This document shows, in pieces, positions 5,562 through 8,943 of a stretch of DNA of 15,710 bases. A program made the position numbers and the translations under genes. Within the stretch, counting starts at the first letter, position 1. Each line of letters starts with the position of its first letter. The notes below the pieces were generated by a model. It did not search any database and was not told where the DNA came from. It saw nothing but the letters and a program-made list of their open reading frames with translations. This stretch comes from Pseudomonadota bacterium. GTDB lineage: Bacteria > Pseudomonadota > Gammaproteobacteria > Burkholderiales > Gallionellaceae. The stretch lies in contig JAJZUH010000033.1 in NCBI GenBank assembly GCA_021847165.1, forward strand, positions 1 to 15,710, read 5' to 3'.

Positions 5562-6844
5562 ACATCCATATCAAGAACGGGCGCCTGATCGACCCGCACA
5601 ACAAGATCGATGCCAGGCAGGACGTGTTCATCGCGGACAAGCATATCGTCGCCATCGGCAAGGCGCCTCAGGGTTTCGTCGCCGCACAGGTGATCGATGC
5701 CACCGGCCTGGTCGTGATCCCCGGCCTGGTGGATTTGGCTGCACGCCTGCGCGAACCGGGTTACGAATACAGGGCCACGCTGGAATCGGAAATGGATGCC
5801 GCGATGGCGGGCGGGGTAACCTCCCTGTCCTGCCCGCCGGATACCGACCCGCCGCTGGACGAGCCGGGTCTGGTGGAGATGCTCAAGCACCGCGCCCGCT
5901 CGCTCAACCAGGCGCGCGTGTTCCCGGTCGGTGCGCTGACCTATGGCCTGCAGGGTGCCGAACTGACCGAGATGGTCGAGCTGACCGAAGCGGGCTGCAA
6001 GGCGTTCAGCCAGGCCGACACGCCGCTCACCGACACGCGCGTGCTGATGCGCGCGATGCAATATGCGGCAACCTTCGGCTATCGCGTTTGGCTGCGCCCG
6101 CAGGATGCTTTCCTGGCCAAGGACGGCGTGGCGCACGACGGCGAAGTGGCGACGCGCCTGGGTTTGCCGGCGATCCCCGTGGCTGCGGAGACCATCGCCC
6201 TGGCGACCATGCTGCAGCTGGCGCGCGAGACCGGCGTCAAACTGCACATCTGCCGCATCTCCAGCGCCGAAGGCGTGGAACTGGTGCGCGCCGCCAAGCG
6301 CCAGGGGCTGGCAGTCACCTGCGACGTGTCGATGAACCACGTGCACCTGTCCGAAATGGATATCGGCTTCTTCGACGCCAACTGCCACCTGATGCCGCCG
6401 CTGCGCAACCAGCGGGACAAGGCGGCGCTGCGCGCCGGACTGCTCGACGGAACCATCGACGCGATCTGCTCCAACCATTCACCGGTGGACGAGGATGCCA
6501 AGCAGCTGCCGTTCGCCGAGGCCGAGGCGGGCGCGACCGGCATGGAACTGCTGCTGCCGCTGATGCTGAAATGGGCGGATGAGGAAAAGATACCGCTGCT
6601 GGATGCGCTGGCGCGCGTGACCATCAATCCCGCGCAACTGCTGGGCGTGAAGATGGGCCACCTGTCGGTCGGTGCCCATGCCGACGTGTGCGTGTTCGAT
6701 CCCGCCGCGGTCTGGAAGATCGAGCCGGCCGCGCTGAAGAGCCAGGGCAAGAACACGCCGTTCAACGGCTACACCCTGCAAGGCAAGGTGCACCACACCA
6801 TCGTCGAAGGCCATGTCGCATATTCAATCCAGGTTGCCAATTAA
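5558..6844 (+). CDS. pyrC': Non-catalytic dihydroorotase-like subunit (PyrC'/PyrX)
   Basis: A 428-residue amidohydrolase-fold protein of the type I dihydroorotase family, but the metal site is gone. The usual D-x-H-x-H-LREPG motif reads [10 protein letters not shown] (59-68), replacing both histidines with A61 and R63. The region that usually carries the next metal His reads WLRPQD (178-183), the following xHxxH segment reads LHICRIS (H230 kept, R233 in place of His), and the usual catalytic DHAP reads SNHSP (305-309), Asp changed to Asn306. It should therefore not hydrolyse dihydroorotate. In Pseudomonas such a pyrC' product is needed to hold the PyrB dodecamer together, and the 4-nt overlap with pyrB fits that role. 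An active dihydroorotase must be encoded elsewhere. The gene ends in TAATG, sharing one base with the prlC start. Confidence 0.88.
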
Positions 6845-8943
6845 TGAATCCATTGCTTGATTTCTCGGGCCTGCCGCGTTTTGCGGAGATCAAACCCGAA
6901 CATGTCACCCCCGCCGTCGACGAGTTGCTGGCGCGCAACCGCGCGCTTATCGAGCAGCTGCTTGCGGCCGACGTCCCGCCCAGCTGGGGCAATTTCGTGC
7001 AGCCGTTCGAGGATGCCAACGAGCACCTGACGCGCGCCTGGGGACAGGTCGGTCATCTCAACATGGTGATGAACGCGCCCGAACTGCGCGAGGTCTATAA
7101 CGCCAACCTGCCCAAGGTCACGCAGTACTACGCCGAGCTGGCGCAGAACCTTGCGCTCTACAGGAAATACAAGACGATCCGCGAGAGCGGCGATTATGCG
7201 CTGCTGAATGCGGCGCAGAAAAAGGTCATCGAGAACGAGCTGCGCGATTTCCGCCTCGGCGGCGCCGAATTGCCGGAAGAACAGAAAGCCAGGTTCATGG
7301 CGATACAGGAGGAGCTTTCCGCGCTCTGCTCGAAATTCTCCGACAACCTGCTGGATGCCACCAACGCGTTCACCTGCTTGGTGGAGCGCGAAGAAGAGAT
7401 CGCCGGGATCCCGCCGGATGAACGCCAGGTCGCCGCCGAAGCGGCGCAGCAGGCGGGCAGGCAAGGCTGGCTGTTCACGCTGAAGGCGCCTTCCTACGGC
7501 CCGGTGATGCAGTATGCCGACAACCGCGCCCTGCGCGAACGCATGTACCGCGCCTACACCACGCGGGCCAGCGAACAGCCGGCGGAGGGTGCCAAAACCG
7601 ATCACCCGCAAGGGGTAGGCCGTGGTTGTACAGCCGATGAATCGGCAACAACCACGCTCTGGGACAACACGCCGCTGATGTCGCAGATCCTGCTGCTGCG
7701 CGCCGAAGAGGCGCGCATGCTGGGTTTTGCCAATTACGCCGAACTGTCGCTGGCCAGCAAGATGGCGGAGACACCGTTGCAGGTGGCCGAATTCCTGCAC
7801 GAGCTGGCCCGTCGCGCCAGGCCGTTCGCGGAGAAGGATCTGCAGGAGCTGCGCGCGTTCGCGGAAGCGCATCTGGGCATGAAAAAGCTGGAAGCGTGGG
7901 ACATCGGCTATGCGAGCGAGAAGCTGCGCCAGCAGCGCTACGCGTTTTCCGAGCAGGAGGTCAAGCAATACTTCCCCGAGGATGCGGTGCTCTCCGGGCT
8001 GTTCGGCCTGGTCGAGGCGCTGTTCGGGCTCACGGTCAAGGCATCGGCGGCGCCGGTCTGGCATGAGACGGTGCGCTTCTTCGATATCCGCGACGGCAAG
8101 GGCGTACTGATCGGCCAGTTCTACCTCGACCTGTACGCGCGCGCCAGCAAGCGCGGCGGTGCCTGGATGGACGACGCCATCACCAGGCGCCGCACGGCCA
8201 AGGGCATCCAGACCCCGGTGGCCTACCTCAACTGCAATTTCGCCGCGCCGGTGGGCGGCCGCCCGGCATTGTTCACGCATGACGAGGTCATCACCCTGTT
8301 CCATGAGTTCGGGCATGGCCTGCATCACCTGCTGACCCAAGTCGAGGAACTCGGCGTATCCGGCATCAGCGGCGTGGAATGGGATGCGGTCGAACTGCCC
8401 AGCCAGTTCATGGAGAATTTCTGCTGGGAATGGGATGTGCTGCAAGGCATGACGCGTCATGCGGACAGCGGGGAAAAGCTGCCGCGCATCCTGTACGACA
8501 AGATGATCGCGGCAAAGAACTTCCAGAGCGGGCTGCAGATGTTGCGCCAGATCGAGTTCTCGCTGTTCGACCTGCGGCTGCACAGCGATTATGATGCCGC
8601 CGGCAAACAGAGCATCCAGCAGTTGCTGGACGAGGTGCGCGCGGAAGTGGCCGTGCTCATTCCGCCCGCCTTCAACCGCTTCCAGAACAGCTTCTCGCAC
8701 ATCTTCGCCGGCGGCTATGCGGCGGGTTATTACAGCTACAAGTGGGCAGAGGTGCTGTCGGCAGATGCATACAGCCTGTTCGAGGAGAACGGCGTGCTGG
8801 ATGCGGCGACGGGCAGCCATTTCCGCCAGGAGATCCTGGCGGTCGGCGGCAGCCGCGACGCGATGGATTCGTTCATCGCCTTCCGCGGACGCGAACCGAA
8901 GATCGATGCGCTGTTGCGGCACAATGGACTGGCGACGGAATAA
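6844..8943 (+). CDS. prlC: Oligopeptidase A (M3 family zinc metallopeptidase)
   Basis: A cytoplasmic thimet-type oligopeptidase that degrades short peptides, including released signal peptides in E. coli. The zinc site HEFGH is at residues 487-491 with the third ligand in the following GVEWDAVELPSQFMENF segment, and the C-terminal FAGGYAAGYYSYKWAEVL is typical. Translation from 6844 gives 699 residues against about 680 in E. coli. A start upstream (frame open from 6688) is rejected because it would lie inside pyrC'; the ATG at 6844 overlaps the pyrC' stop by one base and opens with the family N-terminus. The extra length comes from a block at about residues 250-271, between TRASEQ and WDNTPLM, encoded by a REP-like palindrome. 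The reading frame is intact through it and the catalytic domain is unaffected, so the enzyme is probably functional. Confidence 0.95.
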   Translation: MNPLLDFSGLPRFAEIKPEHVTPAVDELLARNRALIEQLLAADVPPSWGNFVQPFEDANEHLTRAWGQVGHLNMVMNAPELREVYNANLPKVTQYYAELAQNLALYRKYKTIRESGDYALLNAAQKKVIENELRDFRLGGAELPEEQKARFMAIQEELSALCSKFSDNLLDATNAFTCLVEREEEIAGIPPDERQVAAEAAQQAGRQGWLFTLKAPSYGPVMQYADNRALRERMYRAYTTRASEQPAEGAKTDHPQGVGRGCTADESATTTLWDNTPLMSQILLLRAEEARMLGFANYAELSLASKMAETPLQVAEFLHELARRARPFAEKDLQELRAFAEAHLGMKKLEAWDIGYASEKLRQQRYAFSEQEVKQYFPEDAVLSGLFGLVEALFGLTVKASAAPVWHETVRFFDIRDGKGVLIGQFYLDLYARASKRGGAWMDDAITRRRTAKGIQTPVAYLNCNFAAPVGGRPALFTHDEVITLFHEFGHGLHHLLTQVEELGVSGISGVEWDAVELPSQFMENFCWEWDVLQGMTRHADSGEKLPRILYDKMIAAKNFQSGLQMLRQIEFSLFDLRLHSDYDAAGKQSIQQLLDEVRAEVAVLIPPAFNRFQNSFSHIFAGGYAAGYYSYKWAEVLSADAYSLFEENGVLDAATGSHFRQEILAVGGSRDAMDSFIAFRGREPKIDALLRHNGLATE
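7591..7656 (+). repeat. REP-like palindromic element inserted in frame within prlC
   Basis: An outer stem CGTGGTTGT (7621-7629) pairs perfectly with ACAACCACG (7648-7656), and an inner stem GCCGAT (7633-7638) pairs perfectly with ATCGGC (7641-7646). A GTAG tetranucleotide (7615-7618) sits 2 nt before the hairpin, the layout described for REP sequences mobilised by RAYT transposases. Against E. coli oligopeptidase A the protein has about 21 extra residues exactly here. The left boundary is estimated from that protein comparison and is uncertain by several bases. Confidence 0.65.

Follow-up and report, generated by a model that had tools for sequence, protein, structure and literature searches.

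How DNA with the layout of a mobile repeat came to lie inside a protein-coding gene is the question raised by prlC, the oligopeptidase A gene, in the stretch of DNA analysed here (the window, 15,710 nt from a member of the Gallionellaceae). The answer that we propose, and consider very probable, is that a 57-nt non-autonomous REP-like mobile element has inserted between two prlC codons; its mobilisation by a Y1/RAYT-type enzyme acting in trans is a less certain part of this proposal.

The insertion can be delimited to the nucleotide. The genome holding the window (G000) comprises 1.85 Mb and is 69% complete. Its nearest relative, G004, encodes a PrlC of 680 amino acids that is 96% identical to that of the window and has an uninterrupted site. 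With a slash marking the junction, G004 reads ...GCTGAT/TGGGACAAC... and the window reads ...ACCGAT/CACCC...CGCTC/TGGGACAAC...; as in a second empty and filled prlC pair (G023/G029), the two genes differ by exactly 57 nt. The initial annotation had recognised extra DNA at this place, and rightly so, but its edges (7591-7656) and its size of about 21 residues have to be corrected, because 7591-7602 is native prlC DNA that also occurs in the empty G004, and the insert amounts to 19 codons. The frame does stay open through the hairpin, as had been stated, because the GTAG of the insert is read as G-GTA-G. The host protein matches NCBIfam NF008159 (oligopeptidase A) with 847.8 bits in two stretches, below the curated cut-off of 927. 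Segments of the window's PrlC that align to the oligopeptidase A structure 4ka8, which we take to be of the Arabidopsis type, have 29 residues between them as against 3 in 4ka8, and the PrlC proteins of relatives vary in length at the insert site; from these sequences, the target of the insert is predicted to be a length-variable linker. The features of the locus are collected in Table 1.

Table 1. The 57-nt element and its parts within prlC (positions in the window).
Feature	Position	Strand	Basis
prlC, oligopeptidase A (M3 peptidase), host gene	6844..8943	+	ORF, 699 aa; NCBIfam NF008159
Inserted element, 57 nt = 19 codons, HPQGVGRGCTADESATTTL	7603..7659	+	exact 57-nt difference from empty G004; dispersed copies
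Element head, CACCCGCAAGGG	7603..7614	+	mostly invariant or nearly invariant columns in alignments A1 and A4
GTAG tetranucleotide, guide-like position 2 nt (GC) before the stem	7615..7618	+	compared with the GTAG of REPs (PMC8266576, available part)
Outer stem, left arm, pairs with 7648-7656	7621..7629	+	perfect 9 bp; covariation
Inner stem, left arm, pairs with 7641-7646	7633..7638	+	perfect 6 bp; covariation
Inner stem, right arm	7641..7646	+	covariation
Outer stem, right arm	7648..7656	+	covariation
Right end, CTC	7657..7659	+	CTC or CAC in most copies

The arrangement of GTAG two bases ahead of a two-part hairpin with perfect 9-bp and 6-bp stems, as originally described, is found at 7615-7656. 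Ahead of it stands a conserved 12-nt head, for which a CCC/GGG mini-hairpin with a GCAA loop is possible, whereas classical REPs have no such head. Folded as DNA, 7615-7660 reaches -13 kcal/mol (z = -4.7, with none of 200 shuffles as good); folded as RNA, 7591-7665 gives z = -2.8, with 3 of 200 shuffles doing equally well. When GTAG is not required, the two-stem layout is found a single time in the window and in none of 40 mononucleotide shuffles of it, among which the outer stem alone appears five times. A hairpin arisen by chance is ruled out by the DNA-fold and two-stem layout shuffles.

A search for other genomic copies of the hairpin with its GTAG, as the initial annotation had proposed, disclosed a dispersed repeat. 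In a sample of 61 genomes, 37 from the same family (Gallionellaceae) and 24 from other families, the head CCCGCAAGGGGTRGGCCG, allowing at most one mismatch, is present in 34 genomes (32 of the 37 and 2 of the 24) with up to 43 matches per genome, and the reversed control pattern matches once over all 61. Within G000, as far as its 69% completeness allows, DNA search yields one 80% identical copy, one head-only match and weaker matches, and a covariance model (R1) finds three copies in all. This model, built on an alignment (A1) of 26 copies from which L048 was left out (53 nt long), has matches in 16 of the 19 genomes tried, up to 48 per genome. The core motif also occurs in MAG records named Sideroxydans, Gallionella, Gallionellaceae and Thiobacillus, as well as under some broader names (80 listed of at least 116 stretches).

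The unit length is nearly constant. Taking the shortest end gives 57 nt for 69 of 78 copies; with 57 tried first, this length is found in 80 of 90 copies with a recognised right end among 112 heads and in 113 of 127 among 143 heads. The three sets overlap, and the counts omit those heads (22 of 112 and 16 of 143) for which no right end was recognised. Hairpin pairing is what the family conserves. In an alignment (A4) of 52 copies of the prlC-like subtype, standard pairs fill 97.3% of the pair cells, and two-sided change is seen in 8 of the 15 pairs (48 cells; sliding the partner by 1-3 columns leaves 0-4 such cells). Selection of the subtype relied on bases 45-47 (46 and 47 being part of the right outer arm) and not on pairing; L189 was dropped from the 53 chosen copies before alignment, its end being out of register. 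A mixed alignment with a second subtype, in which the stem is shifted, is weaker (61.2% paired). We regard the interpretation of the prlC insert as a mobile in-frame element as well supported.

Many copies lie within other repeats. Twenty distinct GTTCG-unit-CGAA composites were found, 19 with a 57-nt unit and one with a 59-nt unit. The flanks of 160 distinct copies lean towards T at -2 (106 copies), G at -1 (100) and G at +2 (113), a lean to be read in the light of the many copies that sit in one other repeat, and the prlC site fits only its right half. Forms of 87 nt (L044:1499-1585, L063:1499-1585 and L217) hold about 30 extra nt with palindromes of their own inside the hairpin, as if a second repeat had inserted. 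A copy of another subtype with a different hairpin (L003, G000:C10:5346-5402) lies just upstream of an ExbD/TolR-like frame, the gene name being taken from the translation.

The same codon boundary of prlC could be scored in 34 of the 37 family genomes (all except G002, G010 and G019). It is filled in G000, G013, G029 and G020, in each case directly before the (W/L)DNTP codons, and empty in the other 30; four more distant PrlC rows are empty as well, so that the extra residues, for which a comparison with relatives had been advised, are absent from 34 of 38 rows. A tree of these 38 PrlC rows, computed with the insert excluded, demands four changes between filled and empty, all forced by well-supported branches. 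Shuffled labels give 3.9 changes on average, and clustering of the filled rows does not exceed this level. This lack of clustering suits recurrence and offers no positive evidence of descent. A long-conserved segment of PrlC is ruled out by the empty rows together with the tree.

A single ancestral insertion, inherited vertically and lost in most lineages, would account for the identical codon boundary in all four filled genomes. G013 and G029 may well share one event, and the empty G023 could then represent a loss or a regained empty allele. For the family as a whole, we consider such descent very unlikely in view of the ratio of 4 filled to 30 empty sites and of the inserts themselves: those of G000, G013 and G029 differ mutually by only 2 of 57 nt, and those of G000 and G020 by 4, even though the PrlC of G020 is only 72% identical to that of the window. 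The G020 insert is closer to copies elsewhere, one at L122 differing from it by 1 nt; similarly, a single nt separates the G000 insert from a copy at L206. The near-identical inserts of G000, G013 and G029 would also be expected if one insertion had spread among lineages by homologous recombination of prlC, an explanation that is still compatible with tracts of less than about 30 codons. It is nevertheless improbable, since the DNA flanking the insert tracks the host lineage. The 30-codon blocks that adjoin the insert on its two sides share 91% and 97% identity between G000 and the empty G004, as compared with 63-79% between G000 and G013, G029, G023 and G020; the blocks of G020 are closest to its own clade, and flanks of 2-2.8 kb agree with lineage for G000 and for the G013/G029/G023 group. 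With at least three lineages filled and the flanking DNA tracking the gene tree, we therefore favour recurrent insertion at this boundary, the simplest reading being at least three events, in G000, in the G013/G029 group and in G020. The empty site of G023 marks either a precise loss or a further gain, because on either flank of the insert G029 shares more identity with G023 (93.6% and 92.0%) than with G013 (88.4% and 90.1%). In G020, about 4-5 extra codons just upstream of the insert (L022) have no counterpart in sister genomes; because of these, the event there is not a clean 57-nt change alone.

The initial annotation had termed the hairpin domesticated. Selection as a regulatory RNA, or for a functional peptide in PrlC, would be true domestication and could be read into a hairpin that is intact in three of the four prlC copies (the G013 copy lacks one inner pair) and a frame that is open in all four. 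We hold it to be highly improbable: the closest relatives are without the insert, near-identical copies lie at other loci, pairing is conserved across the whole repeat family, and an Rfam search of 7400-7900 returned no match. The term thus finds no support, as nothing shows a function and sister lineages do without the insert. The two options originally offered, a recent in-frame insertion that is tolerated and a lineage that seeds such repeats inside genes, both hold.

In-frame copies indeed occur in 11 gene families including prlC, with about 17 copies in genomes that are unannotated and at loci that partly overlap; NUDIX (L237), Sua5 (L146), ParE (L143), TPMT (L194), a methyltransferase (L301) and others were left out because their start or frame is doubtful. 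For two further genes, empty and filled forms differ by exactly 57 nt, and in both the element lies in or beside another in-frame repeat. The gene of a GlpC-like Fe-S protein is filled in G007 (CCGTTCGTGCTG/57/AGTAGCG) and uninterrupted in G015, the uninterrupted form being itself an in-frame GTTCG-type repeat that is absent from G003, G004 and G008. In the RNase II-like gene of G013 the element is reversed and adjoins a CTCTCCC repeat; G004, the empty counterpart, has this repeat alone, and G003 has neither. A kinase gene with an APH domain, named SrkA by our own reading, was found in Thiobacillus-group genomes with seven empty loci, one copy (L272/L393) and two tandem copies (L254/L400), 4 of the 14 loci being left unscored as they did not match the search expression. 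The empty srkA site, CCACGCTC/CACC, is similar to the sequence formed where the end of one element meets the start of the next; with a target that resembles the ends of the element, the placement of the insert is ambiguous. Elsewhere, wcaI (G006) and hsdR (L303) each have a family match that spans their copy; in a UvrD-type helicase (L203) and an HI0933-like flavoprotein (L242), the copy is flanked by family matches. The best family stretch of hlyD (G016) begins at the copy, and a second stretch exists; the first oligo_HPY region of a dpp-type ABC gene (G031) is apparently split by its copy, and the nifN copy makes up a C-terminal extension, seen in G013 by family match and in G023 by translation only.

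Other repeats were observed in some of the same genes. At the linker of the GlpC-like protein that the 57-mer fills in G007, a different repeat (CCCCCATGCAGGGGGAAGG... with GGGGGTAGA) is present in G014 (L340) and G011 (L341), the alignments of which report a stop. In-frame repeats of the CTCTCCC...GGGCGAGGG type, or similar to it, occur in the RNase II-like genes of G013, G005, G004 and G015 (L351-L353, L361) and are absent in the 8 other relatives shown. The wcaI-like glycosyltransferase gene of G006 (L111:1233-2747) seemingly holds more in-frame repeats besides the 57-mer, with peptides like RTEVRPTG and VETRPTG.

Such association with other repeats bears on the possibility that the element spreads without any transposase, by DNA repair or recombination (microhomology-mediated capture, replication slippage or gene conversion with other repeats). 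The 20 composites, the tandem pair in srkA, the likeness of the empty srkA site to the element's end-to-start junction and the failure to find a cognate transposase beside the element are all in keeping with it. Constant ends and a mostly constant length at many unrelated sites would hardly be expected from repair capture, and the empty prlC sites bear no likeness to the element junction; we thus regard this explanation as possible but doubtful. Transposition in trans remains the reading that we prefer.

The link to RAYT transposases that the initial annotation had drawn received no direct confirmation, as a Y1/RAYT search of G000 gave no match in this 69% complete genome and the RAYTs of relatives stand beside other REP families. 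RAYT family NF047646 is found in 36 of the 61 genomes and exceeds the cut-off in 23. When matches of more than 100 bits are called strong (15 of the 37 family genomes, with G018 and G020, whose matches narrowly exceed the curated cut-off, counted among the rest), the median head density is 4.2 per Mb in the 15 strong-RAYT genomes as against 1.6 in the remaining 22 genomes (p = 0.0025 in a one-sided test, uncorrected for kinship); for genomes at least 90% complete the values are 3.96 (10 genomes) and 0.43 (12 genomes; p = 0.019, likewise uncorrected). G015, G020 and G025, none of which has a strong RAYT (the match of G020 reaches 81.4 bits), hold 20, 17 and 15 heads.

Across 51 scanned Y1-gene loci, some of which overlap, the element lies at only two places: in G028 (L088/L318), where a weaker RAYT-like gene lies about 730 nt away, and in G016 (L319), inside hlyD and about 3 kb from the Y1 gene. 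A model scan of 28 Y1 loci gave L088 and one doubtful 11.9-bit match in L083. None of the strong-RAYT loci L321-L334 holds a copy of the 57-nt element. The 21 strong-RAYT loci inspected (19 places) each carry other GTAG hairpins, mostly two in inverted orientation that flank the gene (GTAGGTCGGGTTAGCG..., GTAGGGTGGGCACG..., GTAGGGCGCAATAA..., GTAGGATGGGTTGAGCG... and others), and no cognate RAYT flanked by the same element was found at them. Loci L321-L334 and L363-L380 represent several distinct REPtron-like loci, with RAYT genes accompanied by GTAG hairpins of at least four families. We judge it about as likely as not that a RAYT acts in trans on the 57-nt element.

The mechanism would be as follows. 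An element composed of a 12-nt head, GTAG, 2 nt, a nested hairpin and a C(T/A)C end would move as single-stranded DNA by means of a Y1 (HUH) transposase of the RAYT or IS200-IS605 kind supplied in trans, and would enter between two prlC codons without target-site duplication. Insertion that leaves the target unduplicated is in line with Y1 enzymes. GTAG would act as the guide and CT/CA as the cleavage site. In the available part of the work on TnpA-REP, substrates are cleaved at CT, or at CT and CA in Marinomonas, these being the cleavage dinucleotides of the enzymes studied, and GTAG is the guide (PMC8266576); the succession of GTAG, 2 nt, a stem and CT/CA in the element fits such substrates. 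Once inserted, the element would persist in genes because 57 is divisible by three, its forward HPQGVGRGC frame is open and the linker that it enters is variable in length. A bolder reading, which we put forward as tentative and rather unlikely in full, is that of a gene-invading mini-element which, by virtue of its near-constant 57 nt, its open frame and the lack of duplication or frameshift, colonises coding sequence, prefers the prlC boundary (at least three lineages), is perhaps precisely lost (G023) and nests into composite proteins.

The family in this bacterium of the Sideroxydans group and its relatives shows how mobile DNA can turn into protein sequence. In free-living bacteria, a single family offers several genes with before-and-after pairs, a boundary that is occupied repeatedly, srkA with zero, one or two copies and the nesting of repeat within repeat. 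Both what moves REP-like DNA and how often mobile hairpins yield new protein segments become testable questions.

Among known systems, the IS200/IS605-derived non-autonomous elements are characterised by insertion without duplication, a small hairpin unit and precise empty sites. The 57-nt element likewise has no target-site duplication and a precise empty site, srkA being ambiguous in placement. Among the Y1 genes inspected with their flanks, no autonomous parent IS sharing the element's ends came to light. RPEs are in-frame palindromic repeats within Rickettsia genes (PMC3733652, as far as available). The 57-nt element resembles them as a palindromic repeat lying in frame within genes that are empty in relatives (prlC, GlpC-like, RNase II-like and srkA), but its lineage is unrelated. 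Unit size and sequence probably differ as well. With the REPtrons and their TnpA-REP enzymes, the element has in common GTAG, the 2-nt spacer of the Marinomonas REP, a stem-loop and CT/CA just after the stem (PMC8266576, available part); it differs in that a REPtron has its RAYT flanked by its own REP, whereas the 57-nt element flanks no RAYT gene that we found. The closest comparison is with the GTAG REPs, which Di Nocera et al. (2013) sorted into 24 families and which, according to the available text, are mostly intergenic but in several species also lie inside ORFs, with the recB REPs of Xanthomonas at about the same site (PMC3733652); coding palindromes, which the initial annotation had called best known from Rickettsia, are not confined to that genus. 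Like these families (PMC3733652, available text), the element combines GTAG beside a palindromic stem, here one of 9 bp, with complementary variants and conserved pairing among many dispersed copies, some of them intragenic. GTAG REPs are hairpin-plus-GTAG units of 20-40 nt, whereas the unit here is mostly 57 nt including its head; the 57-nt element alone has a head, lacks a cognate REPtron as far as found, occupies the same codon in at least three lineages and nests. Sideroxydans, Gallionella and Thiobacillus are absent from the main text of PMC3733652, and our literature search, which included a 15-base piece of the core sequence as text, found within the papers that it covered no paper on this family or carrying its core. 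Intragenic GTAG REPs as such are already known; what appears to be new is this 57-nt family, its unit of a whole number of codons, its recurrence at the same codon and its nesting.
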